Assembly (NCBI GenBank): GCA_945876945.1
Contig: CAMCQE010000018.1
Location: forward strand, 1 to 44,871
DNA length: 44,871 nt
Direction of reading: 5' to 3'
From: Klebsiella pneumoniae
GTDB lineage: Bacteria > Pseudomonadota > Gammaproteobacteria > Ga0077536
This document shows, piece by piece, positions 11,992 through 39,879 of this stretch. The notes under the pieces are model-generated. The model made no database searches, was not told the origin of the DNA, and saw only the letters and a list, made by a program, of their open reading frames with translations. Each line of letters starts with the position of its first letter. Within the stretch, counting starts at the first letter, position 1. The position numbers and the translations under genes were made by a program.

Positions 11992-12044
11992 AAGCGCCCC
12001 GGGCTTGCGGCCAGTGCTGGCACCGCGTGAGCCATTATCCAAAG

Positions 12045-12056: not shown

Positions 12057-12061
12057 GCGCC

Positions 12062-12091: not shown

Positions 12092-12097
12092 CCGGTC

Positions 12098-13689: not shown

Positions 13690-13731
13690 CGGCCAGCGCC
13701 GTACACGATTGATTTCAACAGGAGAATGACC

Positions 13732-14886: not shown

Positions 14887-14899
14887 CGGAACTCCCCGC

Positions 14900-17497
14900 A
14901 TGACGAACACCGCCTATCGCAAACCGCTGCCCGGCACGACGCTCGAGTATTTCGACGCCCGTGCCGCGGTGAACGACCTCCAGCCCGGCGCATGGGAAAA
15001 GCTGCCTTACACCGCGCGCGTGCACGCTGAAAACATCGTGCGCCGCGCGGATCCGGCCATCATTGCCGACTGTCTGAAGCAGATCATCGAAGTCAAACGC
15101 GAGCTCGATTTTCCGTGGTTTCCGGCCCGTGTCGTGTGTCACGACATTCTGGGTCAGACCGCGCTGGTCGATCTTGCCGGCTTGCGCGATGCGATTGCCG
15201 ATCAGGGCGGTGATCCGGCCAAGGTGAATCCCGTGGTGCCGGTGCAGCTGATCGTCGATCACTCACTGGCGGTGGAGTGTGGCGGTTTCGATCCGCAGGC
15301 CTTCGAGAAGAATCGCGCGATTGAAGATCGGCGCAACGAAGACCGGTTTCACTTCATCAACTGGACCAAGCTCGCCTTCGACAACATGGTCGTGATTCCA
15401 GCGGGCAACGGCATCATGCACCAGATCAATCTGGAGAAGATGTCGCCGGTGATTCACGCCCAGGACGGTGTGGCTTTCCCCGACACCTGCGTCGGCACCG
15501 ACAGCCACACCCCGCACGTGGACGCGCTGGGCGTGATTGCGATCGGCGTGGGCGGGCTGGAAGCGGAGAACGTGATGCTGGGGCGCGCGTCCTGGATGCG
15601 CTTGCCGGAAATTGTGGGCGTGAAGCTCACCGGCAAGCTGCAGCCCGGCATTACCGCCACCGATCTGGTGCTGGCGCTTACCGAGTTCCTGCGCAAATCC
15701 AAGGTGGTCGGCGCTTATCTCGAATTCCATGGGGCGGGCGCGTCGTCACTGACGCTCGGCGACCGCGCCACCATTTCCAATATGGCCCCGGAATACGGCG
15801 CCACGGCGGCAATGTTCTCTATCGACCAACAAACGCTTGATTACCTCAAGCTCACCGGCCGCAGCGATGACAACGTGAAGCTGGTGGAGACCTACGCGAA
15901 GGAAGCCGGCCTGTGGGCCGACAGCCTCGCCGGCGTGGTGTATGAGCGTGAACTCGCGTTTGATCTCTCGAGCGTCGTGCGCAATATGGCCGGCCCCAGC
16001 AATCCGCATGCGCGGGTGGCGACCAGCGACTTGGCCGCCAAGGGCATTGCCGCGCCCTGGACCGAAACGCCCGGCCAGATGCCGGACGGGGCGGTGATCA
16101 TCGCGGCCATTACGAGCTGCACCAATACCTCCAATCCCCGCAACGTGATTGCCGCCGGCCTGCTGGCGCGCAACGCCAATCGGCTCGGCCTTACTCGCAA
16201 GCCCTGGGTGAAAAGTTCGCTCGCACCGGGTTCCAAAACCGTTGCGCTGTATCTGGAAGAGGCCGGCCTGAAGTCGGAACTCGAAGCGCTCGGCTTTGGC
16301 ATCGTGGCCTTTGCCTGCACCACCTGTAACGGCATGTCCGGTGCGCTGGACCCGGTGATCCAGCAGGAAATCATCGACCGCGACCTCTACGCCACGGCGG
16401 TACTCTCGGGGAACCGCAATTTCGACGGCCGTATTCACCCGTATGCCAAGCAGGCGTTTCTGGCCTCGCCGCCCCTGGTGGTGGCCTATGCGCTGGCCGG
16501 CACGGTGCGGTTTGATATCGAGAAAGATTCGTTTGGCACCGACGCCAGCGGCCAGCCCATCCTGCTGAAAGACCTGTGGCCGTCGGATGCGGAAATCGAC
16601 GCCATTGTCAGCGCCAGCGTGAAGCCCGAGCAGTTCCGCAAGGTCTACATCCCGATGTTTGAAGACAAGGGCGGGCCAGCGACCAAGGTCAGCCCGCTGT
16701 ACGACTGGCGGGAGATGTCCACCTACATTCGCCGCCCCCCGTATTGGGAAGGCGCGCTGGCCGGTGAGCGCACCCTTAAAGGCATGCGGCCGCTGGCCGT
16801 GCTGCCGGACAACATCACCACCGACCATCTCTCGCCCTCCAACGCCATCCTGCTCGACAGCGCCGCCGGCGAGTACCTCGCCAAAATGGGTTTGCCGGAA
16901 GAAGACTTCAATTCCTACGCCACCCATCGCGGCGACCATCTCACCGCGCAACGCGCCACTTTTGCCAACCCGCAGCTGATGAACGAAATGGCGGTGGTGG
17001 AGGGCAAGGTGAAGAAAGGCTCGCTCGCCCGCGTGGAGCCGGAAGGCACCGTGATGCGCATGTGGGAAGCGATTGAGACCTACATGAACCGCAAGCAGCC
17101 GCTCATCATCGTGGCCGGCGCGGACTATGGGCAGGGCAGCTCGCGCGACTGGGCGGCGAAGGGCGTGCGTCTGGCCGGCGTGGAAGTGATCGCGGCCGAA
17201 GGCTTCGAGCGCATTCATCGCACCAACCTGATTGGCATGGGCGTGTTACCGCTCGAGTTCAAGCCGGGCGTGACTCGCAAAACCCTGGGCTTGGACGGCA
17301 CCGAGACTTACGACGTTGTCGGCGAGCGCACCCCGCGCGCCGACCTCACGCTGGTCATCCATCGCCAGAACGGCGAGCGGCTGGAAGTCACCATGACCAG
17401 CCGCCTCGATACGGCGGAAGAAGTCTCGGTCTACGAGGCCGGTGGTGTGCTGCAGCGGTTTGCGCAGGACTTCCTGGCCGCGACCAAGTCGGCCTGA
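14900..17497 (+). CDS. acnD: Fe/S-dependent 2-methylcitrate dehydratase AcnD
   Basis: An 865-residue aconitase-family enzyme that dehydrates 2-methylcitrate to 2-methyl-aconitate. The [4Fe-4S] cysteines are C407 (TSCTNTSNP), C473 and C476 (CTTCNGMSG). Substrate-binding blocks include GTDSHTPHVDALG and GADYGQGSSRDWAAKGVRLA. The CTTCNGMSG form and the length match AcnD rather than AcnA (~890 residues). It starts 13 bases after prpC with a weak Shine-Dalgarno (ACGGAACT). A strong terminator-like hairpin follows. AcnD needs PrpF to make a product usable downstream, and prpF is the next gene. Confidence 0.93.
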   Translation: MTNTAYRKPLPGTTLEYFDARAAVNDLQPGAWEKLPYTARVHAENIVRRADPAIIADCLKQIIEVKRELDFPWFPARVVCHDILGQTALVDLAGLRDAIADQGGDPAKVNPVVPVQLIVDHSLAVECGGFDPQAFEKNRAIEDRRNEDRFHFINWTKLAFDNMVVIPAGNGIMHQINLEKMSPVIHAQDGVAFPDTCVGTDSHTPHVDALGVIAIGVGGLEAENVMLGRASWMRLPEIVGVKLTGKLQPGITATDLVLALTEFLRKSKVVGAYLEFHGAGASSLTLGDRATISNMAPEYGATAAMFSIDQQTLDYLKLTGRSDDNVKLVETYAKEAGLWADSLAGVVYERELAFDLSSVVRNMAGPSNPHARVATSDLAAKGIAAPWTETPGQMPDGAVIIAAITSCTNTSNPRNVIAAGLLARNANRLGLTRKPWVKSSLAPGSKTVALYLEEAGLKSELEALGFGIVAFACTTCNGMSGALDPVIQQEIIDRDLYATAVLSGNRNFDGRIHPYAKQAFLASPPLVVAYALAGTVRFDIEKDSFGTDASGQPILLKDLWPSDAEIDAIVSASVKPEQFRKVYIPMFEDKGGPATKVSPLYDWREMSTYIRRPPYWEGALAGERTLKGMRPLAVLPDNITTDHLSPSNAILLDSAAGEYLAKMGLPEEDFNSYATHRGDHLTAQRATFANPQLMNEMAVVEGKVKKGSLARVEPEGTVMRMWEAIETYMNRKQPLIIVAGADYGQGSSRDWAAKGVRLAGVEVIAAEGFERIHRTNLIGMGVLPLEFKPGVTRKTLGLDGTETYDVVGERTPRADLTLVIHRQNGERLEVTMTSRLDTAEEVSVYEAGGVLQRFAQDFLAATKSA

Positions 17498-17505
17498 GCC
17501 GCGAG

Positions 17506-17545
17506 GCCCGGGGCGAGGTGGCGTAACGCCGCACTCGCCCCGGGC
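17506..17545 (+). terminator. Strong hairpin between acnD and prpF
   Basis: A 12-bp perfect stem (GCCCGGGGCGAG/CTCGCCCCGGGC) with an inner GGCG/CGCC stem, followed by ATTCTTCCCC. It probably ends or reduces transcription before prpF, implying that prpF is expressed at a lower level or from its own promoter in 17546-17645. Confidence 0.65.
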
Positions 17546-17660
17546 ATTCTTCCCCGCTAACGCGTGCTGGCGAACGCGCCAGACGCAGTCCAGATCTTGA
17601 AGGTTGCTGAGGCAGGCGTCAGATCTGCCGAGGCACTCGCAAACGCTTAGGAGACCGTCC

Positions 17661-18848
17661 ATGGCCCATGTTCCGCAAGTCAAAGTCCCAGCCACCTATA
17701 TGCGCGGCGGCACCAGCAAGGGCGTATTTTTTCGCCTGCAGGATCTGCCCGAGCGCTGCCAGCAGCCGGGCGCGGCGCGCGATAACTTTCTGCTGCGGGT
17801 GATTGGCTCGCCGGATCCTTACGGCGCGCAAATCGACGGCATGGGCGGCGCGACCTCGTCAACTTCAAAGACCGTCATCCTCGACAAGAGCACGCAACCC
17901 GACCACGACGTGGACTACCGCTTTGGTCAGGTGTCGATCGATAAAGCCTTCGTTGACTGGTCCGGTAACTGCGGCAATCTCACCGCCGCCGTGGGCTCCT
18001 TCGCCATTACCAATGGTCTGGTGGATCCGGCCCGCATCCCGCGCGACGGCATCTGCGTGGTGCGGATCTGGCAGGTGCAGATTCAGAAAACCATCATCGC
18101 CCACGTGCCCATGAGCAACGGTGAAGTGCAGGAAACCGGCGATTTCGAGCTCGACGGCGTGACCTTTCCCGCGGCCGAGGTGGTGATCGAATTCCTCGAT
18201 CCGGCCGAAGACAGTGACGACGGCGGCGCGATGTTCCCTACCGGCAATCTGGTGGACGACCTCGTGGTGCCGGGCATCGGCAGCTTCAAGGCCACGATGA
18301 TCAATGCCGGCATTCCCACCATTTTTCTCAACGCGGCCGAGATCGGCTACACCGGGACCGAGCTGCGCGAAGCTATCAACACCTCGCCCGATGCGCTCGC
18401 AAGATTCGAGACCATTCGCGCGCACGGCGCCCTGCGCATGGGGCTGATCAAGGACGTCGCCGAAGCGGCCACTCGTCAGCACACGCCCAAGGTGGCCTTC
18501 GTGGCGCCGCCGGCCGACTATGTGTCCTCCAGCGGCAAACCCGTGGCGACCAGCGATATCGACCTCAACGTGCGCGCGCTGTCGATGGGCAAACTGCACC
18601 ACGCCATGATGGGCACGGCCGCGGTAGCCATCGGCACGGCGGCGGCCATTCCCGGCACTTTGGTGAATCTCGCCGCCGGCGGCGGTGAGCGCACGGCGGT
18701 GCGCTTCGGTCATCCGTCCGGCACTTTGCGGGTGGGGGCGGAAGCCACGCAGAACGCCGGCGAATGGGTGGTCAAGAAAGCCATCATGAGCCGTAGCGCG
18801 CGCGTGCTGATGGAAGGCTCGGTGCGCGTGCCCGGGGATTCGTTCTAA
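17661..18848 (+). CDS. prpF: 2-methylaconitate cis-trans isomerase PrpF
   Basis: A 395-residue member of the diaminopimelate-epimerase fold family. It isomerises the 2-methyl-aconitate made by AcnD to the cis form that aconitase hydrates. Family blocks: ATYMRGGTSKGVFF at residues ~11-24 with the conserved Lys; GMGGATSSTSKTVIL (~60-74); GNCGNLTAAVG (~98-108); and FGHPSGTLRVGAE near the C-terminus. AGGAG lies 8 bases before the ATG at 17661. It is separated from acnD by 163 bases containing the hairpin. The AcnD/PrpF pair replaces PrpD of enterics; no prpD or prpE is seen in the window. Confidence 0.93.
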   Translation: MAHVPQVKVPATYMRGGTSKGVFFRLQDLPERCQQPGAARDNFLLRVIGSPDPYGAQIDGMGGATSSTSKTVILDKSTQPDHDVDYRFGQVSIDKAFVDWSGNCGNLTAAVGSFAITNGLVDPARIPRDGICVVRIWQVQIQKTIIAHVPMSNGEVQETGDFELDGVTFPAAEVVIEFLDPAEDSDDGGAMFPTGNLVDDLVVPGIGSFKATMINAGIPTIFLNAAEIGYTGTELREAINTSPDALARFETIRAHGALRMGLIKDVAEAATRQHTPKVAFVAPPADYVSSSGKPVATSDIDLNVRALSMGKLHHAMMGTAAVAIGTAAAIPGTLVNLAAGGGERTAVRFGHPSGTLRVGAEATQNAGEWVVKKAIMSRSARVLMEGSVRVPGDSF

Positions 18849-26149: not shown

Positions 26150-27772
26150 TCAGGAAATTTTTGGCGCCCCCGCGCCCACGAACTGCACCCGCAGTTCGCG
26201 CTTCAACACTTTGCCCGTCGCGTTGCGCGGCAGCGCCTCGATGATCGCGATGTCGTTCGGCACCTTGAACTTCGCTAGCCGGCTCACGCAATGGCTGAGC
26301 ACAATCGTGAGGTCGATGGTGGCGCCCGGTTTGAGCGCGAGCACGGCGAGTCCCACCTCGCCCCATTTTTCGTGCGGCACGCCGATCACGGCGGCTTCGG
26401 CCACCTGCGGTAGCTGATACAGCACGTTTTCTACTTCCGCGGGATACACGTTCTCGCCGCCCGAGATGTACATGTCTTTCCAGCGGTCGACGATGTAGAC
26501 GAAGCCCTCATCATCCTTTCGCGCGGCGTCGCCGGTTTTGAGCCAGCGCCCTTCAAAAGCGGACGCGGTGGCGTCGGGGCGATTCCAGTAGCCCGGGGTG
26601 ATGTTGGGGCCGGCGACCCAGAGTTCGCCAATTTCATCTGCCCCGCAGTCCTGCCCGTGCTCGTTCACGATGCGCATTTCGGTGTGCATGAGCGCTTTGC
26701 CGGTCGAGCCAATTTTGCGCAGGGCGTCGGCAGGATTGAGCGCGATGCAGGCCGGGCTGGTCTCTGTCATGCCAAAACCCTGCGCCATCAACACCCCGCG
26801 ACTGGCCCAGGTTTCCATGATGGTGAGCGCGCAGGGCGCGCCGCCGACGCCGGCCACGCGCAGGCGGGAGAGGTCGGTTTGCTCAAATTCGGGATGCTGC
26901 ATCATGAACTGATAGGGCGCCGGCACGCCGAAAAAATGGGTGATGCCCTGCGCCGGATCGCCCAGCACCCGCAGCGTCGTCGCGGGGTCGAAAGCCTTCA
27001 TGATCACCACCGTGCCACCGGCGTGGAGCACCGGATTGGAATAGCAGTTGAGCCCGCCGGTATGGAACAGCGGCAGGATATTGAGATGCACCGTCTCCGG
27101 GCTGATGCCGGTGGGGATCCCGAGGTTGACCGCGTTCCAGAAGTTCATGCCGTGGGTGATCATCGCGCCCTTCGGGTGGCCGGTCGTGCCCGAGGTGTAC
27201 ATGATGGTGATGACGTCGTCATGCGTCAGCGCTGCACGCGTCACCGGCTGGCCGGCAAAGCCTTGCATCATGCCTTCATAGGGATTGTTGGCGGCGGCGC
27301 TATCGATACACAGCAGGTTCGCCACGCCACACCGCTGCTGGAGGGCGTCGGCCGTGGCGCTGAAGCTTGCGTCGTGCACGAGGAGCAGCGGCTGGCTGTC
27401 GTTCAGGATGTATTCGAGTTCGGTCACCGTCAGGCGCCAGTTCAAGAGCACGCAGATACTGCCGGTGCGCGCGCAAGCAAACTGGATGTCGAAGTACTCA
27501 ACGCCATTTTGCGCCAGCACCGCGACGCGATCGCCGCGCCCGATCCCCAGCGACTGCAAATAGGCCGCAAACGCATCGGCCCGGGCGTGCAGGGCGGCGT
27601 AGCTGAACTGGCGATCCGTGCCGAGGTCGCGAATGGCTTCCTTGTCTGGCCGCTGCAAATGATGGTGGTCGAGCCAGTCGTAGGCGGGTACCGCGCCGTG
27701 TCCGCGCGGGCGGGAGGAGGTCATGGAGGCCTCTGCCTCGGCGCTGGGCGTGAAATCAAAAGCAGCAGACAT
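26150..27772 (-). CDS. AMP-forming acyl-CoA synthetase
   Basis: A 540-residue ANL-superfamily ligase that activates a carboxylic acid with ATP and CoA. Motifs in order: MYTSGTTGHPKGAMITH (P-loop-like A3), ILPLFHTGGLNC (A4), and MAQGFGMTETSPA (A5). ELWVAGPNITPGYWNRP, WLKTGDAARKDDEGFVYIVD (A7), RWKDMYISGGENVYPAEVEN (A8) and the catalytic Lys in LPRNATGKVLKRELR (A10) complete the set. It is the first gene of a three-gene unit with SCP2-like and hydrolase genes. GGGGGA lies close to the ATG at 27772; an internal ATG ~16 codons later is also possible. Chain length and substrate cannot be told. Confidence 0.92.
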   Translation of the reverse strand: MSAAFDFTPSAEAEASMTSSRPRGHGAVPAYDWLDHHHLQRPDKEAIRDLGTDRQFSYAALHARADAFAAYLQSLGIGRGDRVAVLAQNGVEYFDIQFACARTGSICVLLNWRLTVTELEYILNDSQPLLLVHDASFSATADALQQRCGVANLLCIDSAAANNPYEGMMQGFAGQPVTRAALTHDDVITIMYTSGTTGHPKGAMITHGMNFWNAVNLGIPTGISPETVHLNILPLFHTGGLNCYSNPVLHAGGTVVIMKAFDPATTLRVLGDPAQGITHFFGVPAPYQFMMQHPEFEQTDLSRLRVAGVGGAPCALTIMETWASRGVLMAQGFGMTETSPACIALNPADALRKIGSTGKALMHTEMRIVNEHGQDCGADEIGELWVAGPNITPGYWNRPDATASAFEGRWLKTGDAARKDDEGFVYIVDRWKDMYISGGENVYPAEVENVLYQLPQVAEAAVIGVPHEKWGEVGLAVLALKPGATIDLTIVLSHCVSRLAKFKVPNDIAIIEALPRNATGKVLKRELRVQFVGAGAPKIS

Positions 27773-28110: not shown

Positions 28111-29937
28111 ATGAGTTGGCAACGCAAGATTTTGAGAGTCAATTTGAGCGCAGGGACCTGCGTCTCCGAGCCGCTCAACATGGAATGGGCTGAGGCCTAT
28201 CTTGGGCAGCGCGGCCTGGCCACCAAATACCTGATGGAAGAAATCGACCCCAAGGTCGATCCGCTTTCCCCCGAGAACAAACTCATCATCGCCACCGGCC
28301 CGCTGACCGGCACGATGGCCTCCACCGGCGGCCGCTGGTCGGCGGTCACCAAGGGCGCATTGACCGGCGCCATTGCCTGCTCCAATTCGGGCGGCCAGTT
28401 TGGCGGCGAACTCAAGAATGCCGGCTGGGACTTCATCATCATCGAAGGCCGCGCGCCGACCCCGGTGTATCTGTACATCGAAAACGATAAGGCCGAGCTG
28501 AAAGACGCCACCCACCTGTGGGGGCGCTCGATTTGGGAAGCCGAGCCGGCGATCAAGGCCGCGCATCACGATCCCCTCATTCGCGTGGCTTCCATTGGCC
28601 CGGCCGGCGAGACCTTGGCGCGCTACGCCTGCATCGTGAACGATCTGCATCGCGCCGCTGGCCGCTCTGGCGTGGGCGCCGTGATGGGCTCGAAGCAACT
28701 CAAGGCCATCGCCGTGCGCGGCTCAGTGGGCACCAAGGTGGCGGACGGCAAAGCCTTCATGGCGGCGGTTTCCGGCGCCAGCACCGCGCTTGCCCAGAGC
28801 GAAGGCCGCATGGGCTTCACGCGTTACGGCACGATTCCCATGATGGACATTACCGGCGGCTTTGGCGCCTTGCCCACGCGCAACAACCGTCAGGTGCAGT
28901 TCGAGGGTTCGGACAAACTCAACGCCACGGCGATGCAAACGCCGAACGCCAACGGGCACACCAACCTCATCACCAACGGCGCGTGCTTTGGCTGCACCAT
29001 CGGCTGCGGTCGGATCTGCCACATCGACCCGCAGCACTTCTCGGTGAAAGACCGCCCGCAGTACCACCATGCGTCCGGCGGTCTGGAATACGAAACCGCC
29101 TATGCGCTCGGCGCGGCCGTGGGCGTAGACGACATGGACGCCGCGACCTTCGCCGGCTTCATGTGCAACGAATACGGCATGGACCCCATCTCCCTCGGCG
29201 GTTCGATTGCGGCGGCGATGGAGTTGTTCGACATTGGCGCCATCACCGAAGCCGACACCGGCGGGCTCAAGCTCGAGTTCGGTGACGCGCACATGCTCTG
29301 CCAGTTGGCGGAAATGACCGGTAAGGGTGAAGGCTTCGGCCGCGACATCGGCCTTGGTTCCAAACTGCTCTGCGAAAAGTACGGGCACCCGGAACTCTCC
29401 ATGGCCGTGAAGGGCCAGGAATTCGCCGCCTACGACGGTCGCGCGATGCAGGGTATGGGCCTCGCCTACGCCACCAGCAACCGCGGCGCGTGCCATCTGC
29501 GCGCCAATCCTTACGCCCACGATTTCGGCTCCACCGAAACCCCGGGCAAGGCCAAGGTGGTCATGAAAACGCAGAACGTGATTGCGGCGATCGACTCCAC
29601 CGGTCTGTGCGTGTTCACGCTGCACGCTGGCGCCACTGAAGAGCATTACGCCTCGCAGGTGAGTGCGGCGGTAGGCAGCGAGTGGACGGTGCAGCGCATG
29701 CGCGAAACCGGCGAGCGCATCTGGAATCTGGAGCGTCAGTTCAATCTGGCGGCCGGGCTTACCGCCAAAGACGACACCTTGCCGACGCGCATTCTGGCCG
29801 AGCCGGCACCGAGCGGCGCGGCCAAAGGCTTGGTCTGCAAGCTGCCCGAGATGCTGCCGGAGTACTACCAGCTCCGCGGTTGGTCGGCGGACGGCGTGCC
29901 GGAACAGGCCACGCTGGAGCGTCTGCAACTCAACTAG
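28111..29937 (+). CDS. Tungsten-type aldehyde:ferredoxin oxidoreductase
   Basis: A 608-residue AOR-family enzyme, expected to bind a bis-pyranopterin tungsten (or molybdenum) cofactor and a [4Fe-4S] cluster and to interconvert aldehydes and acids. Cluster ligands are C292, C295 and C299 (CFGCTIGC) plus C500 (STGLC). The N-terminal pterin-binding region (GRWSAVTKGALTG, then SNSGGQFGGELKNAGWDFII) is clear. The DLHRAAGRSGVGAVMGSKQL block and AYATSNRGACHLRANPY are hallmarks. CAGGAG precedes the ATG. A MoaD-like gene follows after 10 bases, as in other AOR loci. No ferredoxin-like or flavin subunit is adjacent, so the electron acceptor is unknown. The aldehyde is probably an intermediate of the surrounding catabolic genes. 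Confidence 0.9.
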   Translation: MSWQRKILRVNLSAGTCVSEPLNMEWAEAYLGQRGLATKYLMEEIDPKVDPLSPENKLIIATGPLTGTMASTGGRWSAVTKGALTGAIACSNSGGQFGGELKNAGWDFIIIEGRAPTPVYLYIENDKAELKDATHLWGRSIWEAEPAIKAAHHDPLIRVASIGPAGETLARYACIVNDLHRAAGRSGVGAVMGSKQLKAIAVRGSVGTKVADGKAFMAAVSGASTALAQSEGRMGFTRYGTIPMMDITGGFGALPTRNNRQVQFEGSDKLNATAMQTPNANGHTNLITNGACFGCTIGCGRICHIDPQHFSVKDRPQYHHASGGLEYETAYALGAAVGVDDMDAATFAGFMCNEYGMDPISLGGSIAAAMELFDIGAITEADTGGLKLEFGDAHMLCQLAEMTGKGEGFGRDIGLGSKLLCEKYGHPELSMAVKGQEFAAYDGRAMQGMGLAYATSNRGACHLRANPYAHDFGSTETPGKAKVVMKTQNVIAAIDSTGLCVFTLHAGATEEHYASQVSAAVGSEWTVQRMRETGERIWNLERQFNLAAGLTAKDDTLPTRILAEPAPSGAAKGLVCKLPEMLPEYYQLRGWSADGVPEQATLERLQLN

Positions 29938-29947
29938 GCCCTTGTCG

Positions 29948-30214
29948 ATGCGCATTGCGATCAAACTGGTCGGCATGCTCATCGACCAAATTCCTGCGGG
30001 CGGCCCACTTGGCGCCCGCCCGCAGGGCCCCAAGCCGCTGGATCTGCCAGTGGCCTGCACGCTGGCCGATTTGCTCAACATCGTTGGGCTCAAGGCCGAC
30101 GTCGAATACTTCGCGATGATTAACGACGAGCACATCCCGGCCGAGCGCCTCGCGGCGCATGTGCTGCGCGAGGCCGACAGCGTGGTGCTGTTTCCGCCGC
30201 TCAAGGGCGGTTAG
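29948..30214 (+). CDS. MoaD/ThiS-like sulfur-carrier protein paired with AOR
   Basis: An 88-residue beta-grasp protein ending in Gly-Gly (PPLKGG), the thiocarboxylate-forming tail of MoaD and ThiS. SVVLFPPLKGG and ALINIV-like strands (TLADLLNIVGL) fit the fold. Next to an AOR gene it most likely supplies sulfur for the dithiolene of the tungsten/molybdenum pterin, as a dedicated MoaD. The ATG at 29948 lies 10 bases after the AOR stop; the ribosome-binding site is weak (CTAGG), suggesting coupling to AOR translation. A terminator follows, so AOR and this gene form a two-gene operon. Confidence 0.85.
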   Translation: MRIAIKLVGMLIDQIPAGGPLGARPQGPKPLDLPVACTLADLLNIVGLKADVEYFAMINDEHIPAERLAAHVLREADSVVLFPPLKGG

Positions 30215-31082: not shown

Positions 31083-32294
31083 ATGCACAGCCACCTTCTA
31101 AGCGATCTCAAGGTGCTCGACCTCACCCGCGCGCTGGCCGGGCCCACCTGTGCCCGCATGCTGGCCGAGATGGGCGCGCAGGTAATTAAAGTGGAGTCGG
31201 CGCCGGCGGGCGACATGACGCGTCAGATTTCCCACATCCGCAATCCCCGTGGCCTCTATTACGTGCAGCAGAATCTGGGCAAGAAAAGCCTGTGTGTGGA
31301 TCTGCGCGACCCGCGCGGCATGGCGCTGGTGACCTCGCTCATTCCCAAAGTCGACGTGGTGGTCGAGAACTTCAAGCCCGGCACGTTGGCGGCGATGGGG
31401 CTGGGCTACGAGCGGCTGCGCGAAATGCGCGAGGACATCATCCTGTGTTCCATCTCCTCCCTGGGCCAGACCGGGCCGCTGTCGCACCTGCCGGGCTATG
31501 ACTTCATCGCCCAAGGCTATTCCGGCATAACCTCTATGATTGGTGAGGCCGACGGCACGCCCTACATTCCGCCGGTCGGCATGGGCGATGTGGGCACTGG
31601 CGTGCATGCGGCGCTGGCCGTGCTGGCGGCGCTGCGCTATCGCGACCGCACGGGCGAGGGACAGCAGCTCGATATCAGCCTGCTCGACATGTACTACCAC
31701 TGTCAGGAAGTGACGGTGCATCAGGCCAGCGCCAGCGATGGGCGCCTGAATCCCACGCGGCAGGGGCCGCATCTCAACTACCTGTGCCCGGCCGGCGTGT
31801 TCAAAGCTAACGGCGGCTGGGTGGTCATCATGGCCTTCCAGCACCACTGGAAAGATCTCTGCGCCGCCATGCAGCGCCCCGACCTCGTCAATCACGAACG
31901 CTACGCCACCGATGCCGGCCGTCTCGCCGAGCGACCGGTGATCGTGAAACTGCTGGAAGACTGGCTGGCGACTTGCCCCGATCGCGATAGCGCGGTGGCG
32001 CTGATGCAGCAGCATCAGGTGCCGGCGGCGCCGGTGCTGTCGGTGGCAGAAACCCTGACGCATCCGCATCACGTTGCGCGCGGCACGGTGCGCACCATCA
32101 CCGACCCCATCGCCGGCACCTTCCAGATCCCGGGGATGCCGCTGCGCTTCTCTAAATTCCCCGACGATTTGCCGCTGGAGGCGCCCACGCTCGGTCAGCA
32201 CAACGCGGAGGTGCTCCGCGACTGGTTGGGCATGAACGAGCAGGAGATCGCGTCGCTCGAGTCGGCGAGCGTCTTGCAAGCGGGCGAGTATTAG
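31083..32294 (+). CDS. CaiB/BaiF-family (class III) CoA-transferase
   Basis: A 403-residue class III CoA-transferase moving CoA between acids without a covalent ping-pong. The N-terminal block KVLDLTRALAGPTCARMLAE and IKVESAPAGDMTR are typical. NLGKKSLCVDLRDPRGMALV and ENFKPGTLAAMGLGYERLRE follow. The catalytic aspartate is expected in VGMGDVGTGVHAALAVLAAL. The C-terminal part has QVPAAPVLSVAETLTHPHHV. Members activate carnitine, bile acids, benzylsuccinate, methylsuccinyl or steroid acids; the donor and acceptor are unknown. It is convergent with the nitroalkane oxidase-like gene, with a 12-base gap and no obvious terminator. Confidence 0.9.
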   Translation: MHSHLLSDLKVLDLTRALAGPTCARMLAEMGAQVIKVESAPAGDMTRQISHIRNPRGLYYVQQNLGKKSLCVDLRDPRGMALVTSLIPKVDVVVENFKPGTLAAMGLGYERLREMREDIILCSISSLGQTGPLSHLPGYDFIAQGYSGITSMIGEADGTPYIPPVGMGDVGTGVHAALAVLAALRYRDRTGEGQQLDISLLDMYYHCQEVTVHQASASDGRLNPTRQGPHLNYLCPAGVFKANGGWVVIMAFQHHWKDLCAAMQRPDLVNHERYATDAGRLAERPVIVKLLEDWLATCPDRDSAVALMQQHQVPAAPVLSVAETLTHPHHVARGTVRTITDPIAGTFQIPGMPLRFSKFPDDLPLEAPTLGQHNAEVLRDWLGMNEQEIASLESASVLQAGEY

Positions 32295-32306: not shown

Positions 32307-33551
32307 TTAAGCCGCGCCGGCCGCGTCCAGCGCGTGATAATCGGCGCTCATCAGCAACTCGTGTAACTGCCGGCGGCGTACGCCCATATTCCCGCCGTCG
32401 AACAGCGGTAACACCAGCGCGTCTTGCAGCAGCCCCCCCAGCGGCAGTTGGTGATCGTAGCTGTCGATCCCCACCACGCTCATGAGCTTCGTAATCACGC
32501 GCACCGCGGCCTCGGAGCCAAAAATCTTCGAATGCAGCGCCGCTTCCAGCGCACCCGGGGCTTGGGCATCCATCGCATGGCAGGCTTTCCAGCCGAGATA
32601 GCGCGCCGCCTCCAGCGTGGTTTTGGCGTCCGCCAGCGCATAGCCCACCGCCTGATGTTCGATGATGGGTTTAAGCCCGCCGCGCAGCTCGGTTTTGGCG
32701 AAATGCAGCGCGAAATCAAACGCCGCCCGCATCAGGCCTACGCCCATGATGCCGACCAGTGCGGCGGTGCCGGTGAAGCTCGCATCGATAATGCCGCGCC
32801 CCGCGCCGGCTTCGCCCAGTACGTTGTCGTAGGGCACGCGCACGTCGTTCAGTTCAAATACGGGTGCCGGATGCGCGCGATTGCCCACGGTATCGATCAG
32901 TTCCACCAATCGGAAACCACGCTCGGGCTTCGGCACCGCAATCACCGAGATACTCCGCTCCGGCGGCGCGGATGAGTCGGTGCGACAGACCACGCAGAGC
33001 AGATCCGCGCCGAGGCCATCCCAGCCCGCGCCGTTCATCCATTTTTTGGCGCCGTTGATCACCCATTCGTCGCCTTCGAGCCGGGCGCTGGTGCGCACGC
33101 CGGCGGCTGGGGCGGGCGCTGCGTAGTTGGCGCTGCCACCGGGTTCGCTATTGGCGAGCGCCGCGAGCGGGGCGCCTGTTTTGGTGAGGAAGGGGGCGAT
33201 GAGTTCCTGCTGTTGCGCGGGGGAGCCGGCGAGAAACACCGGCATCAGGCCGAGCAGGGTGGCGAGCAAGGTGAGCGAGACGTTGGCGTCTACCGCGTAG
33301 AACTCTTCGGTGAGGATGGCCATATCCATCAGCCCCGTGCCTTCGCCGCCGAAGGGTTGCGGAATGAGCCGGCGTAAAAAGCCTTCCCGCACGACCGCTT
33401 CATACATGGGGCGGGTGGCGGCGAAGCGTTCGGCCGGCGTGGTCAAGCCCTGGGTTGCGCTGCGAACCCCGCCCAGCACCTCGCGGGCAAAGTGCCGGCA
33501 CTGCAGTTGAAACGCGCGCTGCTCGGGGCTCAGGGTGAAATCGATGGCCAT
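32307..33551 (-). CDS. Acyl-CoA dehydrogenase-fold flavoprotein with nitroalkane oxidase-type active site
   Basis: A 414-residue FAD protein of the acyl-CoA dehydrogenase superfamily. FAD-binding blocks: LAALANSEPGGSANY, INGAKKWMNGAGWDGLGADL and KTELRGGLKPIIEHQAVGYA. Near the C-terminus the usual YEGT catalytic glutamate is replaced by Asp385 in PLFDGGNMGVRRRQ, with Arg392 seven residues later. This Asp...Arg pair is the active-site pattern of fungal nitroalkane oxidase (Asp402, Arg409), which converts nitroalkanes to aldehydes or ketones, nitrite and peroxide. From memory, the IEHQAVGYALAD and DGGN-R-RRRQ regions also resemble that enzyme. It follows the SDR gene by 40 bases on the same strand. 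An atypical acyl-CoA dehydrogenase is the alternative. Confidence 0.8.
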   Translation of the reverse strand: MAIDFTLSPEQRAFQLQCRHFAREVLGGVRSATQGLTTPAERFAATRPMYEAVVREGFLRRLIPQPFGGEGTGLMDMAILTEEFYAVDANVSLTLLATLLGLMPVFLAGSPAQQQELIAPFLTKTGAPLAALANSEPGGSANYAAPAPAAGVRTSARLEGDEWVINGAKKWMNGAGWDGLGADLLCVVCRTDSSAPPERSISVIAVPKPERGFRLVELIDTVGNRAHPAPVFELNDVRVPYDNVLGEAGAGRGIIDASFTGTAALVGIMGVGLMRAAFDFALHFAKTELRGGLKPIIEHQAVGYALADAKTTLEAARYLGWKACHAMDAQAPGALEAALHSKIFGSEAAVRVITKLMSVVGIDSYDHQLPLGGLLQDALVLPLFDGGNMGVRRRQLHELLMSADYHALDAAGAA

Positions 33552-33591: not shown

Positions 33592-34344
33592 TCAGGCGCT
33601 GAAGCCGCCGTCCACGCCGATGATCTGACCGTTGATATAGGCCGCGCCGGGCGAGATCAGAAAATCCACCACCGCGCTGACTTCTTCGGGTTTGCCCATG
33701 CGTTGCAGCGGCGTGTTGGCCACCATGGTGTTGATCACACCTTGCGCCAGCGCATTCCCGGCGAACTCCGGCGCGTAGATGATGCCGGCGTCGATTACCG
33801 CCGGCGCGATGCCGTTGCAGCGCACGTTGTGCGGTCCCATCTCGCGGGCGAACTGGCGGACCATCGCGCCCACCGCCGTTTTGGGGCAGCCCGACATGCC
33901 GTCGTTTTCCAGGGTTTGCAGCACCGCCGTGGTGAGAAACATCACCACGCTGCCGCCGCCGTTGGCCTGCAGCGCGCGGGTGCCGTGCTTGAGCACGTTG
34001 AAGGCGCCGCGGACGTCGGTCGCATACACGCGGTCGAAGTCTTCGTCGGGCACATCGACCATCGGCATCAGCGGAATGGCCGGCCCCGTGGCGGAAATCA
34101 CGGCGCCGAGGCCATCGCCCATTGCCGCTGCGGTATGAATGAACTGCGCGACCGACGCACCATCCCGACTATCCACCTGCGCGATGGCCGCGTGCCCGCC
34201 GGCGGCGGCGATGCGCTCGGCCAGTTGCGCGGCTTTATCCTGATGCCGGGCGTAACCCAGGAGCAGTGGCCCCCGCGCGGCGACCGCGCGGGCCACGGCC
34301 TCACCAAGTCCGCCGGAGGCGCCGAGTATGGCGATCGATTTCAT
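33592..34344 (-). CDS. Short-chain dehydrogenase/reductase-fold protein lacking the catalytic Tyr
   Basis: A 250-residue classical SDR-fold protein. The nucleotide motif is GASGGLG (residues 8-14). The NAG/N region is replaced by SATGPAIPL (~84-92). At the catalytic YxxxK site the sequence is SGCPK: Ser151 stands where Tyr is required, with Lys155 kept. Thr residues (FLTTAV, ~137-141) occupy the Ser position. The C-terminus is typical (NVRCNGIAPAVIDAGI, YINGQIIGVDGGFSA). It may bind NAD(P) without standard oxidoreductase chemistry. A GGAG precedes the ATG. It is the first gene of a two-gene unit with the nitroalkane oxidase-like gene and is divergent from the enoyl-CoA hydratase. Confidence 0.85.
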   Translation of the reverse strand: MKSIAILGASGGLGEAVARAVAARGPLLLGYARHQDKAAQLAERIAAAGGHAAIAQVDSRDGASVAQFIHTAAAMGDGLGAVISATGPAIPLMPMVDVPDEDFDRVYATDVRGAFNVLKHGTRALQANGGGSVVMFLTTAVLQTLENDGMSGCPKTAVGAMVRQFAREMGPHNVRCNGIAPAVIDAGIIYAPEFAGNALAQGVINTMVANTPLQRMGKPEEVSAVVDFLISPGAAYINGQIIGVDGGFSA

Positions 34345-34508
34345 GAATGCTTGCTCCGCACGGGATGTGCCTCGAGTTTACTGGAAGGCGCGCGCCCGTC
34401 AGCACCTGCATTTTCTGCTGCGCTGCGGCTGTTTTTACCCCGAGGCAGCGGCTAGGGTCTGTGTTAATTTTCGGCCGCCGCCACTCACTGGAAAAGGGAC
34501 GACGACGG

Positions 34509-35270
34509 ATGTCTGAAGTGCTGGTCGACTATGACGATGGCCTCATCGTTATCACCATCAATCGCCCCCAGGCGCGGAACGCCATCAACCGGGCGGTGTC
34601 GCTGGGCGTGTGCGCGGCACTTGATGAGCTCGATGGTCGCGACGATCTGCGCGTGGGCATACTCACCGGCGCGGGCGGCAGTTTTTGCGCCGGCATGGAT
34701 CTCAAAGCCTTTCTTGCCGGCGAGGTCATTCGGATCGAAGGTCGCGGCACGCTGGGCCTGATGATGCGGCCACCGCGCAAGCCGCTGATCGCCGCCGTCG
34801 AAGGCCACGCGCTGGCCGGCGGTTTCGAGGCGATGCTGGCCTGCGATCTCGCGGTGGCCGCGAATAACGCGCAATTTGGTTTGCCGGAAGTGAAGCGCGG
34901 GCTTGCCGCCGGCAGCGGCGGACTGCTCCGCCTGCCGCGTCTTATCCCGCCTAGAATCGCCATGGAACTCGCGCTCACCGGCGAGGCTTTGTCAGCCCCG
35001 CGTGCGGCGGAGTTGGGCCTCATCAACAGGCTCACCGAGCCGGGCGCGGCGCTGGCGTGTGCACGGGATCTCGCCCGGCAGATCATCGCCAACGCGCCGC
35101 TGTCGGTAGCGGCCAGCAAGCGGGTGATGGTCGAGAGCCGCGACTGGTCGCTGGACGAGATGTTCGCCCGGCAACAGGACATTACCGGGCCGGTATTGGC
35201 CTCGGCGGATGCCCGCGAGGGTGCCGCCGCGTTTGCCGGGAAGCGCGCGCCACGCTGGCGCGGTTGCTGA
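34509..35270 (+). CDS. Enoyl-CoA hydratase/isomerase family protein
   Basis: A 253-residue crotonase-fold protein. The N-terminus is typical (VITINRPQARNAINRAV). Oxyanion-hole segments are GGSFCAGMDLKAF and GHALAGGFEAMLACDLAVAA. LPEVKRGLAAGSGGLLRLPR contains one catalytic-type Glu (PEVKRG); the second Glu of canonical hydratases is replaced by the Gly/Ser-rich stretch, so hydratase, isomerase or other crotonase chemistry is possible. It starts a plus-strand unit with acyl-CoA dehydrogenase, thiolase-like and DUF35 genes. The ATG at 34509 follows AAAGGGACGACG. Confidence 0.9.
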   Translation: MSEVLVDYDDGLIVITINRPQARNAINRAVSLGVCAALDELDGRDDLRVGILTGAGGSFCAGMDLKAFLAGEVIRIEGRGTLGLMMRPPRKPLIAAVEGHALAGGFEAMLACDLAVAANNAQFGLPEVKRGLAAGSGGLLRLPRLIPPRIAMELALTGEALSAPRAAELGLINRLTEPGAALACARDLARQIIANAPLSVAASKRVMVESRDWSLDEMFARQQDITGPVLASADAREGAAAFAGKRAPRWRGC

Positions 35271-35313: not shown

Positions 35314-36486
35314 ATGATTCCTCGCACCATTTTCTCTGCTGAACACGAGCTGTTTCGCGCGACCGTGAAACGCTTCATCGCCGAAGAAGTGATGCCGCAT
35401 CACGCGGAGTGGGAAAAAGCCGGCCAGACGCCGCGTTCACTGTGGCTGAAGGCGGGCGAACTGGGACTTCTCTGCTGCAACATCCCCACCGAATACGGCG
35501 GGATGGGTGGTGACTTTCTGCACACGGCGGTGCTGATCGAAGAATTCTCGGCCGCCGGTGCCACCGGGCCTACGTTTTATCTGCACTCCGATATCGTCGC
35601 GCCCTACCTTCTGGACTTCGGCACCGAAGCCCAGAAGCAGCACTGGCTGCCGAAGATGGCGAGCGGGGAAGTCATCGGCGCGCTGGGCATGAGCGAACCG
35701 TCCGGCGGCAGCGACGTGCAGGCCATGCGCACCAACGCGCGCCGCGAAGGCGACGAGTACGTCATCAACGGCCAGAAGGTATTCATCACCAACGGCCACA
35801 CCGCAGATTTATTGGTGCTCGCCTGCAAGACCGACCCCACCGCGCGCGGTCGCGGGGTGAGTCTGATTCTGGTCGAGACTCATCGCGCGGGTTTCAATCG
35901 CGGCCGCAAGCTGGAAAAAATTGGCTGCAAGGCGCAAGACACCGCCGAACTTTTCTTCGCCGATCTCCGCGTGCCGGCCGGCAACGTGTTGGGCGGCGAG
36001 GGCAACGGCTTCACCATGCTCATGACCCAGCTCGCGCAGGAACGCCTTATTCAGGCAATTCGCGGCGTGGCCTGCGCCGAGTCGGCGGTGCGCTGGACCA
36101 TCGACTACGCCAGCCAGCGCGAAATGTTCGGGCAAACGCTGGCGGATTTTCAGAACACGCGCTTCGAGTTGGCCGACATGCACGCGCAGATTCTGGCCCA
36201 GCGGGTATTCGTCGACCGCTGCATCGAGTTACACGTGAAGGGCGAACTCGACGCCACCGACGCGGCGGCGGCCAAGCTGGTGGCCACCAACCTGCAGTGC
36301 GCGGTGCTCGATCGCTGTCTGCAGCTGTTCGGCGGCTGGGGCTATATGTGGGAGTACCCGATTGCGCGCGCCTTTGTGGATGCGCGCATGTCGCGGATCG
36401 GCGGCGGCGCGACCGAAGTCATGAAGCAGATCATCGCCAATAGCCTGCTGCCGAAAGTGCCGCGCGCGACCAAAAACCCCCGTTGA
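35314..36486 (+). CDS. Acyl-CoA dehydrogenase
   Basis: A 390-residue FAD acyl-CoA dehydrogenase that forms the 2,3-trans-enoyl-CoA. Blocks: GLLCCNIPTEYGGMGGDFLH, LGMSEPSGGSDVQAMRTNAR, INGQKVFITNGHTADLLVLA, and YASQREMFGQTLADFQNTRF. A glutamate in LAQERLIQAI sits where long-chain and isovaleryl-type enzymes keep the catalytic base; the C-terminal IGGGATEVMKQII lacks the alternative YEGT Glu, consistent with this subtype. It follows the enoyl-CoA hydratase by 43 bases and precedes the thiolase-like gene by 11. It contrasts with the divergent nitroalkane oxidase-like homologue, which differs at the base. The substrate is probably branched or cyclic, by context. Confidence 0.92.
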   Translation: MIPRTIFSAEHELFRATVKRFIAEEVMPHHAEWEKAGQTPRSLWLKAGELGLLCCNIPTEYGGMGGDFLHTAVLIEEFSAAGATGPTFYLHSDIVAPYLLDFGTEAQKQHWLPKMASGEVIGALGMSEPSGGSDVQAMRTNARREGDEYVINGQKVFITNGHTADLLVLACKTDPTARGRGVSLILVETHRAGFNRGRKLEKIGCKAQDTAELFFADLRVPAGNVLGGEGNGFTMLMTQLAQERLIQAIRGVACAESAVRWTIDYASQREMFGQTLADFQNTRFELADMHAQILAQRVFVDRCIELHVKGELDATDAAAAKLVATNLQCAVLDRCLQLFGGWGYMWEYPIARAFVDARMSRIGGGATEVMKQIIANSLLPKVPRATKNPR

Positions 36487-36497
36487 AGGAGCAGCAC

Positions 36498-37652
36498 ATG
36501 TCGATTGCGGACAAGGCCTGCGTGACGGGCATTGGCGAAACCGCCTACGTGCGCGGCTCGCCCAAAAGCGCCTTCGAGTTACAGATGGAGGCGGCACGGC
36601 GCGCAGCGGAAGACGCCGGTATTTCCCCGCACGACATCGACGGGGTGATTCCGATCGGCGTGGTGAGCGGCATCGCGGAAGACTTTATCGACAATTTCGG
36701 CATTACCGATCTGCGCTTCTCGGCGCTGATTCCGCACGGCGGCGCGAGTCCTTCCATGGCCTTGCAGTCGGCGACCGCGCTGGTGGCGGCGGGGATCTGC
36801 AATCACGTGCTGATTGCCTTCGGGCGTAACGTGAGTGCGGCCGCGAGCAAGGCGGGTGCGCGCATTCACCAGATGCCGCAGTTTCACTCCGTGACCGAGT
36901 TCGAATATCCGCTTGGCAACTGCGCGCCGGCGCAAATCTACGCGCCCATGGCCATGCGGCACATGCAGCTCTACGGCACTACGGTGGAACACTTCGGTGA
37001 AGTCGCGGTGGCCTGTCGCGAACACGCGCTGTTGAACGACAACGCCATCATGAAGAAGCCCATCACGCTCGAAGATCACCGCAATTCGCGGCTAATCGCC
37101 GAGCCCTTTCGTCTGCTGGACTGCAGTCTGGAGAGCGACGGCGGGGCGGCGGTGATTGTGAGCGCGGCCGAGCGGGCGAAGGATTTGCGGCACCGGCGGG
37201 TGTTCATTTCCGGGGTGGCGGTCGGGCATCCGGATTCACCCGCCTCCATTACCCAGCGACCCGACATGACCAGCCTCGGCCTTGGTAAAGCGGCGCCGCG
37301 CGCCTTCCGGATGGCGGGCGTGACGCCGGCAGATATCCAGGTGGCCGAGATTTACGATTGTTTTACCTACGCCGTCATTCGCCAGCTGGAAGACATGGGC
37401 TTTTGCGCGAAAGGCGAGGGCGGTCCGTTTGTGGCCGACGGCCGGCTGCGGCTGGGCGGCGCGCTACCCACCAATACGCACGGCGGTTTGCTGTCGCAGG
37501 CGCATATCTGGGGGCTCAACCACATTGTGGAACTGGTGCGTCAGCTGCGCGGTCACGGCGGCCGCGCGCAGGTGCCGGGCGCTGAACTCGGCCTGGTCAC
37601 GGGCTATGGCGATTTGGGCGATGGCGCGATTGCCATCATGCGCAGGGAGTAA
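36498..37652 (+). CDS. Thiolase-like protein without catalytic Cys, Ltp2-type aldolase candidate
   Basis: A 384-residue thiolase-superfamily protein of the lipid-transfer/SCPx group. At the position of the nucleophilic Cys motif the sequence is LIPHGGASPSMALQSA (about residues 78-92), with no Cys. C-terminal hallmarks are VAEIYDCFTYAVIRQLEDMG and NTHGGLLSQAHIWGLNHIVE. Cys-less members paired with a DUF35 protein include Ltp2, which cleaves steroid side-chain 3-hydroxyacyl-CoAs by retro-aldol reaction and releases propionyl-CoA. The DUF35 gene lies 6 bases downstream, completing the pair. AAGGAG sits 6 bases before the ATG at 36498 and favours it over a TTG at 36483. Confidence 0.85.
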   Translation: MSIADKACVTGIGETAYVRGSPKSAFELQMEAARRAAEDAGISPHDIDGVIPIGVVSGIAEDFIDNFGITDLRFSALIPHGGASPSMALQSATALVAAGICNHVLIAFGRNVSAAASKAGARIHQMPQFHSVTEFEYPLGNCAPAQIYAPMAMRHMQLYGTTVEHFGEVAVACREHALLNDNAIMKKPITLEDHRNSRLIAEPFRLLDCSLESDGGAAVIVSAAERAKDLRHRRVFISGVAVGHPDSPASITQRPDMTSLGLGKAAPRAFRMAGVTPADIQVAEIYDCFTYAVIRQLEDMGFCAKGEGGPFVADGRLRLGGALPTNTHGGLLSQAHIWGLNHIVELVRQLRGHGGRAQVPGAELGLVTGYGDLGDGAIAIMRRE

Positions 37653-37658
37653 ACGACG

Positions 37659-38060
37659 ATGTCTGAGCTTGTTCCCAAACCCGTCCCGGTGCCTTCGGCG
37701 GTCGCGCTCCCGTATTGGGAGGGCCTCCGGCGCGGGGAATTTTGCGTGCAGCGCTGCGCGGCCTGCGGAACGCTGCGTCACTATCCCCGTCTGCTATGCC
37801 GCGAATGTTTTAGCGACGCTGTTGACTGGCAGGCCATCAGCGGCGAGGGCCATATTCACAGCTATACCGTTGCCCATTACGCTTACCACCCCGGGTTTGC
37901 CGCCGAACTGCCCTACACCCTGGTCACGATTGAACTGACCGTGGGCCTGCGGGCTTTAGGTCGCTGGCTGGGCGATGCGGTGCCGCAGATCGGGGCGCCG
38001 GTGCGTATGATTCTGGTGCCCGGTGAGCCCTATCCCACGCTCTCGTTCGCGCCGGCTTGA
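37659..38060 (+). CDS. DUF35 / OB-fold zinc-ribbon partner protein (ChsH2-like)
   Basis: A 133-residue protein with an N-terminal rubredoxin-like zinc ribbon and a C-terminal OB fold. The four zinc Cys are in QRCAACGTLRHYPRLLCREC (CxxC...CxxC). The strand-rich OB part follows (YTVAHYAYHPGFAAELPYTL, VTIELTVGLRALGRWLG). DUF35 proteins bind acyl-CoA and form complexes with thiolase-like enzymes; ChsH2 activates the Ltp2 aldolase and also pairs with a MaoC-type hydratase. Immediate adjacency to the thiolase-like gene (6-base gap) supports a functional complex. It is the last gene of its operon; 190 bases precede the monooxygenase. Confidence 0.88.
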   Translation: MSELVPKPVPVPSAVALPYWEGLRRGEFCVQRCAACGTLRHYPRLLCRECFSDAVDWQAISGEGHIHSYTVAHYAYHPGFAAELPYTLVTIELTVGLRALGRWLGDAVPQIGAPVRMILVPGEPYPTLSFAPA

Positions 38061-38250: not shown

Positions 38251-39879
38251 ATGTCAGACGCGAAACAGCAGACGCAGGCCGCCACCCGGTTGGATGCGCT
38301 GGTTATCGGAACCGGCGTCGCCGGGCTCTATCAACTCCACCAGCTGCGCGAGCAGGGGTTTGCGGTAAAAGCCGTAGACACTGCGACCAACGTTGGCGGC
38401 ACCTGGTACTGGAACCGTTATCCCGGCGCCAAGTTCGACTCCGAAAGCTACATCTACCAGTACCTGTTCTCCGAAGACCTCTACAAGGACTGGACCTGGA
38501 GCCAGCGCTTCCCCGGCCAGCCCGAAATCGAACGCTGGATGAACTACATCGCCGACCGCCTCGACCTGCGCAAGGACATCCACTTCAGCACCACCGTGAA
38601 GTCGGCGCACTTCGACGAATCCACCCAACGCTGGACCGTCACCACCGACACCGGCGAGACCTTCGACACCCAGTTCCTCATTTCCTGCACCGGCATGCTG
38701 TCGGCGCCGCTGGCGAACGTGTTCCCGGGTCAGGAAACCTTCAAAGGCCGCATTTTCCACACCTCGCGCTGGCCGAAGGAACAAATCGACTTCGCCGGCA
38801 AGCGCGTTGGCGTGGTGGGCAACGGCGCGACGGGCATTCAGGTCATCCAGACCATCGCGCCCACGGTCGGCGAAATGAAAGTGTTCGTCCGCACCCCGCA
38901 ATACATCACCCCAATGAACAACCCGAGCTACGGACCGGCCGAAGCGGCTGCCTATAAAGAGCGCTTTGCAGAACTGCGCGAGCTGCTGCCGCGCACCTTC
39001 TCCGGCTTCGAATACGACTTCGAAAACGGTCCGTGGTCCGAGCTGTCGCCGGCCCGTCGCCGCGAGATTCTGGAAGCCAACTGGAAAGACGGTTCGCTCA
39101 AGCTATGGCTCGCCACCTGCTCCGAGCTCTTCTTCGAGTCTGCCGTGAGCGACGAGGTTTCGGAATTCGTGCGCGAAAAAATGCGCGAGCGCCTGAAAGA
39201 CCCGCGTCTGTGCGAACTGCTCATTCCCTCCGACTACGGCTTTGGCACGCACCGCGTGCCGCTCGAAAGCAATTACCTCGAGGTCTACCACCAGCCCAAC
39301 GTTGAGCTGGTCAGCGTGAAGGCCAACCCCATCAAGGAAGTCACGCCGAAAGGCATCAAGCTGGCCGATGGCACCGAGTACGAACTCGACATCCTCATCC
39401 TGGCGACTGGTTTCGACGCCGGCTCCGGCGCGCTCACCCGCATCGACATTCGCGGTCGCGGTGGCCGTTCGCTGAAGGACGACTGGAACCGCGAAATTCG
39501 CACCACGCTCGGCCTGCAGGTGCACGGTTATCCCAATCTGTTTACCACCGGGGCGCCGCTCGCGCCCTCGGCCGCGCTGTGCAATATGACCACCTGCCTG
39601 CAGCAGCAGACCGAGTGGATCACCGGCTGCCTCATGCATCTGCGCAGCAGCGGCGCGGCGGCGATTGAAGCCAGTGCGGCGCTGGAAGACGAGTGGGTGA
39701 AGCATCACGACGAAATCGCCAACGCGACCCTCGTCACCAAGACCGACTCCTGGTACATGGGCTCGAACGTCGACGGCAAGCCGCGGCGTCTGCTGTCGTA
39801 CATCGGCGGCGTGGGTAACTACCGCCAGAAGTGCGAAGACCTGGCGCGTGAAGGCTATCCGGGCTTTGTGATGCAGTAA
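38251..39879 (+). CDS. Baeyer-Villiger monooxygenase (cyclohexanone monooxygenase-like)
   Basis: A 542-residue FAD/NADPH class B monooxygenase that converts ketones to esters or lactones with O2. The BVMO fingerprint FxGxxxHTxxWP is present as FKGRIFHTSRWP. The first Rossmann motif is VIGTGVAGLYQLHQL near residue 20; the second is VVGNGATGIQVIQT. NVGGTWYWNRYPGAKFDSES is typical of the CHMO/PAMO group. C-terminal PNLFTTGAPLAPSALC-like and EDEWVKHHDEI segments agree. A strong Shine-Dalgarno AGGAGG precedes the ATG. It stands alone with a strong terminator after it. The ketone could be cyclic or branched. Confidence 0.93.
   Translation: MSDAKQQTQAATRLDALVIGTGVAGLYQLHQLREQGFAVKAVDTATNVGGTWYWNRYPGAKFDSESYIYQYLFSEDLYKDWTWSQRFPGQPEIERWMNYIADRLDLRKDIHFSTTVKSAHFDESTQRWTVTTDTGETFDTQFLISCTGMLSAPLANVFPGQETFKGRIFHTSRWPKEQIDFAGKRVGVVGNGATGIQVIQTIAPTVGEMKVFVRTPQYITPMNNPSYGPAEAAAYKERFAELRELLPRTFSGFEYDFENGPWSELSPARRREILEANWKDGSLKLWLATCSELFFESAVSDEVSEFVREKMRERLKDPRLCELLIPSDYGFGTHRVPLESNYLEVYHQPNVELVSVKANPIKEVTPKGIKLADGTEYELDILILATGFDAGSGALTRIDIRGRGGRSLKDDWNREIRTTLGLQVHGYPNLFTTGAPLAPSAALCNMTTCLQQQTEWITGCLMHLRSSGAAAIEASAALEDEWVKHHDEIANATLVTKTDSWYMGSNVDGKPRRLLSYIGGVGNYRQKCEDLAREGYPGFVMQ

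Follow-up and report, generated by a model that had tools for sequence, protein, structure and literature searches.

The window studied here, by which we mean the whole 44,871-nucleotide stretch of DNA that was analysed, carries a gene that is, judging by its sequence, a bacterial member of the nitroalkane oxidase (NAO) family, with a rare and patchy distribution. Its predicted product is a flavoprotein with the acyl-CoA dehydrogenase (ACAD) fold, and we put the probability that it oxidises nitroalkanes at about 0.72. To our knowledge all proven NAOs are fungal and no natural substrate is known for them; our literature search, in which few subscription journals were covered, returned no publication dealing with a bacterial representative. 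The gene and the positions discussed below, given with their equivalents in the Fusarium oxysporum enzyme (FoNAO), are the following:

32307..33551, (-) strand: NAO-like flavoprotein of ACAD fold, 414 aa (ORF call, PDB matches, tree and fold)
32376..32378, (-) strand: codon of R392, equivalent to FoNAO Arg409 (alignment)
32397..32399, (-) strand: codon of D385, equivalent to FoNAO Asp402, the catalytic base (alignment)
32766..32768, (-) strand: codon of T262, equivalent to FoNAO Ser276 (alignment)
33009..33041, (-) strand: NAO-specific loop W171-G181, WMNGAGWDGLG (alignment)

The open reading frame is complete and begins with ATG. In a phmmer search of all PDB sequences the best match was the NAO of Podospora anserina (3mkh; 331 bits, E = 1.2e-97), with FoNAO second (2c0u; 288 bits, E = 8.8e-85) and the top ACAD reaching only 143 bits (E = 1.8e-40). 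Over 405 aligned residues the window protein and the Podospora enzyme share 46% identity; the value for FoNAO (structures 2c0u, 3d9d-g, 2reh and 2zaf) is 39%, and the two fungal enzymes are 43% identical to each other; identity to medium- and short-chain ACADs (1ukw, 2vig, 3mdd) is about 26-29%. The segment IEHQAVGYALADAK (residues 297-310), whose resemblance to fungal NAO had been suspected beforehand, does pair in the alignment with IEHQSVADKLIDCK of FoNAO. No ACAD model of NCBIfam comes near its cut-off (the best gives 120 of 650 bits), and Pfam returns general ACAD domains and nothing narrower. Comparison with close relatives gives a dN/dS of about 0.10, that is, purifying selection.

A maximum-likelihood tree was computed for 93 proteins, among them about 25 ACADs from the window's genome and the two fungal NAOs. 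All NAO-like proteins form one clade (support 100/100, branch 1.3), inside which a sub-clade of 47 rows (100/98) unites the two fungal NAOs with the window's group and a single additional bacterial protein; three other bacterial NAO-like groups fall outside this sub-clade. In the sample used, where the fungal side consists of two sequences, the fungal NAOs branch from inside a bacterial radiation. The earlier note had called the protein a homologue of nitroalkane oxidase and had proposed a phylogeny as a check: clustering within ordinary ACADs was looked for and not seen, and homology is upheld by the database search, the tree and the fold. Concerning the last, the AlphaFold model (pLDDT 88.7) finds with Foldseek top matches that are all NAO (TM 0.93), the best ACAD giving 0.86, and in VIA-align FoNAO obtains the best Z, 50.0. 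A CoA dehydrogenase obtains 49.6, however, and fold alone therefore does not decide function. The modelled structure has the fold of the ACAD superfamily, shared with NAOs and with medium- and short-chain ACADs alike, and FAD binding is predicted by homology.

Active-site residues were compared in a MAFFT alignment with FoNAO of 93 sequences, divided into 62 NAO-like rows and 31 ACADs on the column of FoNAO 277, a split that agrees with the tree. This defining column holds Ala, Gly or Ser in 62/62 NAO-like rows and Arg in 29/31 ACADs; the window protein has A263 here, directly after T262, and the helix-G Arg that it replaces is a CoA contact in ACADs. Asp occupies the position of FoNAO 402 in 58 of the 62 NAO-like rows and Arg that of 409 in 56, N405 never varies and the R409-R411 block hardly does. 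What sets the NAO-like rows apart from ACADs, besides the loss of the helix-G Arg and the separate clade, is the block DGGN(x)3RRR as a whole, together with a GWDxxGAD loop insertion that is also present in FoNAO. At the two sites where ACADs place their catalytic Glu, the window protein has Asp (C-terminal position) and Thr (helix-G position). Two ACAD signatures of PROSITE style, formulated as regular expressions, are absent from every NAO-like row, the window protein included, and are missing also from some of the sampled ordinary ACADs. At FoNAO Tyr398 both the window protein and the Podospora enzyme have Leu.

It had been argued from the sequence that Asp385 followed seven residues later by Arg392 is the mark of a NAO. 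The alignment of the pair with D402 and R409, shared with both fungal enzymes, stands, but its diagnostic value on its own does not. Asp is found at the catalytic position in 4/31 ACADs, Arg or Lys is usual at the second position (22/31), and both Asp and an Arg seven residues on occur in two of the 31 (L076 and L084); since these two are ordinary ACADs from the window's own genome, the pair is weak alone, and its spacing was dropped as sole evidence. The Asp belongs to a DGP motif in four ordinary ACADs of the host (L076, L080, L083, L084), which may be a trap for signature-based calls.

At the position of FoNAO Ser276 the window protein has Thr (T262), as do 50/62 NAO-like rows, so that the hydroxyl is kept and the strict Ser, present in both fungal enzymes, is absent. 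The position of FoNAO Ser171 is altered by a deletion in the W171-G181 loop, which has one residue more in other NAOs, the Podospora enzyme among them; the short form is common to the window protein and its three nearest relatives, and the window's genus has WMNGAGWD where nine residues are found elsewhere (for example WPSNSGGWD or WVSSATGWD). In FoNAO these two Ser residues tune the chemistry and do not make it. Replacement of Ser by Ala in fungal NAO reportedly costs only a few fold, so Ser at 276 should not be a strict requirement. A published search for new NAOs is said to have required the strict Asp-Arg-Ser triad and to have chosen among fungal matches; most bacterial members would escape such a search because they have Thr. 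By all sequence tests that were run, except that for a strict Ser276, the window protein is a member of the NAO family.

Natural variants at these positions were noticed among the relatives. In an NAO-like protein of Rhodococcus sp. USK13 (L070:7001-8236) the catalytic Asp is replaced by Glu (IEGSNIGVRRR). Tandem paralogues in Bradyrhizobium (L031:5857-7098, L037:9285-10532, L039:9279-10526) have Gly instead of the catalytic Asp and Ala at the equivalent of Thr276; they are full length, evolve with a dN/dS of about 0.13 and lie beside an intact copy, and are perhaps non-catalytic partner subunits. Distant NAO-like proteins encoded as neighbouring pairs (L071:4567-8317, L072:7001-10315, L073:5574-8341) have Gln at the position of Arg409. 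The first two pairs adjoin an Rrf2 regulator (RirA/NsrR-like, below cut-offs), and the L071 pair is also found with ETF, a 2Fe-2S ferredoxin-like protein and a truncated haemoglobin; the paired proteins are possibly a dehydrogenase version of the enzyme.

Gene neighbourhoods of the relatives bear on the substrate. In Nevskia (L017) the NAO gene lies inside a phenylacetate (paa) operon and its stop overlaps the start of paaH; with curated profiles PaaA and PaaZ are over their cut-offs, PaaH is just below and PaaK is cut by the contig end. Homologous neighbours show that the paa context is shared by two further loci (L027, L045), and at another (L011) the NAO gene directly follows hmgA-fahA, both over cut-off. 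Plasmid p2 of Shinella carries, in this order, nirB-nirD-cysG, a regulator, an SDR, an NTF2-like protein, an aldehyde dehydrogenase, NAO, a FeaR-like regulator and a transporter, nirBD-cysG being about 4.5 kb from NAO, the only case of nirBD adjacency seen. An aldehyde dehydrogenase adjoins NAO or is one to two genes off in Shinella, on two Rhodococcus plasmids, and in R. jostii, Pseudomonas and Novosphingobium; the gene is shortened in R. wratislaviensis and truncated in Novosphingobium. Counted by lineage this amounts to about 5 of some 20, with a binomial P near 0.003 at 5% background, which is a rough guide, the lineage count having been made by eye and the background being an estimate. 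FeaR-like regulators (154-184 bits of a 199-bit cut-off) flank NAO in Shinella, Rhodococcus and Pseudomonas, and the Bradyrhizobium copies have instead an upstream regulator and, in most cases, a downstream SDR. Two further lines were set aside. StyD-like aldehyde dehydrogenases are so numerous (12 to 67 matches per host genome at E < 1e-90) that StyD is weakened as a specific substrate marker and the phenylacetaldehyde reading of these neighbours is soft; co-occurrence of NAO with paaA in 58 relatives is uninformative, paaA being nearly family-wide (33/58).

The surroundings of the window copy are different, as the following genes show:

26150..27772, (-) strand: AMP-forming acyl-CoA ligase
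28111..29937, (+) strand: aldehyde:ferredoxin oxidoreductase (AOR) family protein
29948..30214, (+) strand: MoaD/ThiS-like protein of only 88 aa, following the AOR gene (reading of the translation)
31083..32294, (+) strand: class III CoA-transferase, convergent with the NAO-like gene (profile match)
33592..34344, (-) strand: SDR oxidoreductase, 40 bp upstream of the NAO-like gene, same orientation
34503..35270, (+) strand: enoyl-CoA hydratase/crotonase, divergent from SDR-NAO (start inferred within the ORF 34347-35270)
35314..36486, (+) strand: ordinary ACAD, LCAD-type (profile match)
36483..38060, (+) strand: SCP2-type thiolase with an OB-fold (DUF35-like) partner (profile match)
38251..39879, (+) strand: Baeyer-Villiger/FMO-like monooxygenase (profile match)

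This is a CoA beta-oxidation cluster, unlike the paa, hmgA-fahA and aldehyde dehydrogenase settings of the relatives. No aldehyde dehydrogenase or nirBD was found near the window copy, no NirB above cut-off was found in the host genome, and the paa pathway is present in that genome away from the window copy. The SDR is a probable operon partner of the NAO-like gene; it is kept in the closest relative, G001 (L046/L064), and absent from G004 and G008. The enoyl-CoA hydratase is adjacent also in G001, G004 and G008 of the window's genus, and adjacency to the CoA-transferase is repeated in L014/L054. The AOR is a possible aldehyde sink; as a conserved partner of the window NAO copy it was not upheld, because in the relatives AOR and NAO are on different contigs and G008 differs downstream of NAO. 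A second AOR copy, 60% identical, occurs elsewhere in the window's genome. In the LCAD-type ACAD the usual C-terminal Glu position is Gly, and its base is probably, to judge from the sequence, the helix-G Glu (QER). Elsewhere in the window (12005-18848) there is a 2-methylcitrate-type operon with a GntR regulator, a PrpB-like lyase, citrate synthase and PrpF; where AcnD would be expected it has a long ORF (14792-17497).

By analogy with FoNAO, the window protein would be an FAD-dependent member of the ACAD superfamily that has given up CoA esters as substrates. D385, positioned and tuned by R392 and T262, would remove the alpha-proton of a neutral nitroalkane, and the resulting carbanion would attack flavin N5; nitrite would leave, water would then yield an aldehyde or ketone, and the reduced FAD would be reoxidised by O2 with formation of H2O2. 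The carbonyl made by the window copy would then pass to the nearby genes of aldehyde oxidation, CoA activation and beta-oxidation. What the analysis shows is family membership, conservation of residues, the predicted fold and a context in relatives that suits aldehyde and nitrite products; the catalytic steps, the electron acceptor and the substrate are inferred. FoNAO acts on neutral nitroalkanes, and propionate-3-nitronate is handled by nitronate monooxygenases, an FMN TIM-barrel family that is unrelated to NAO and acts on nitronates. The suggestion of the earlier note that the substrate is 3-nitropropionate-like found no support in any neighbouring gene, the context in the relatives pointing to aryl-acetaldehyde and aryl-acetate pathways. 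Conversion, in bacteria, of nitro compounds to a carbonyl and nitrite is described for nitronate monooxygenase/propionate-3-nitronate monooxygenase (PMC9552603). Our best guess for the family is an arylnitroethane, either 1-nitro-2-phenylethane, which is a plant volatile (PMC11469922), or a ring-hydroxylated analogue, converted to phenylacetaldehyde and further to phenylacetate; the aldehyde dehydrogenases, the nitrite reductase and the paa and homogentisate operons of the relatives are as expected if an arylnitroethane gives an arylacetaldehyde plus nitrite. More tentative, and in our judgement rather doubtful, is the wider proposal that a widespread but patchy family of bacterial NAOs catabolises plant arylnitroethanes (1-nitro-2-phenylethane and its hydroxylated analogues) via phenylacetaldehyde into the paa or homogentisate pathway, some hosts drawing nitrogen from the nitrite, and that fungal NAOs derive from this family by gene transfer.

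Several observations speak against oxidation of nitroalkanes by the window protein: Thr in place of Ser276, here and in most bacterial members; the one-residue deletion, in the window's genus, in the loop holding Ser171; CoA beta-oxidation neighbours, which would suit an ordinary ACAD; the lack of an aldehyde dehydrogenase and nirBD near the window copy, with no NirB over cut-off in the host; and Foldseek and VIA scores that cannot tell NAO from ACAD function. An enzyme of NAO fold that does not bind CoA might instead oxidise some different small compound, be it an amine, an imine, an oxime or an activated C-H acid, possibly working as a dehydrogenase with ETF as electron acceptor, and in the window serve beta-oxidation and the Baeyer-Villiger pathway. 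The CoA and ketone setting, which is not one of nitro metabolism, and the deletion in a flavin-contact loop would fit such a role, as would the ETF genes beside one distant NAO-like pair (Sulfitobacter) and the fact that the ACAD relatives PigA and RedW work on C-N bonds without CoA. We consider it rather improbable, however: the residues of NAO chemistry are all kept save for Ser to Thr and the loop change, the window protein shares a sub-clade with the fungal NAOs, and next to the window copy no gene for ETF was noticed.

The neighbours would also agree with an ordinary ACAD in which Asp replaces Glu, acting on a CoA ester of the adjoining cluster, all the more as Asp occurs at the catalytic position of ordinary ACADs and homologues bear the database label "acyl-CoA dehydrogenase family protein". 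Yet the protein lies outside all sampled ACADs in the tree, has lost the helix-G Arg and both ACAD signatures, reaches only 120 of 650 bits with the best NCBIfam ACAD model, and stands near a cluster that already has its LCAD-type ACAD (35314-36486), which makes this explanation quite unlikely. That the gene is a decayed or inactive paralogue, for which the Asp-less Bradyrhizobium copies offer a precedent, has hardly any probability given the full-length ORF, the presence of catalytic Asp and Arg and the dN/dS of about 0.10. Oxidation of nitroalkanes is the reading we prefer.

NAO-like relatives were found in Bradyrhizobium, Variovorax, Pseudomonas, Rhodococcus, Nevskia and several metagenome-assembled gammaproteobacteria, also on plasmids. 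In the window's class 2/275 sampled genomes have such a gene at E < 1e-70, the window's own included; in its genus and family the count is 12 of 58 searched relatives (E < 1e-50), and a search of an E. coli collection gave no match. The bacterial NAO-like gene is thus patchy and accessory. Since RefSeq annotates these genes as members of the acyl-CoA dehydrogenase family, Bradyrhizobium, Pseudomonas, Rhodococcus and Variovorax genomes may conceal a step that denitrifies nitroalkanes. With operons that contain paa, hmgA-fahA or nirBD at hand in strains that can be cultured, the natural role of NAO is open to direct test. Two loci deposited as Klebsiella pneumoniae MAG (L010, L019) carry genes 84% and 67% identical to that of the window; they appear identical to contigs of G003 and G026 from the window's family, and are almost surely mislabelled bins.
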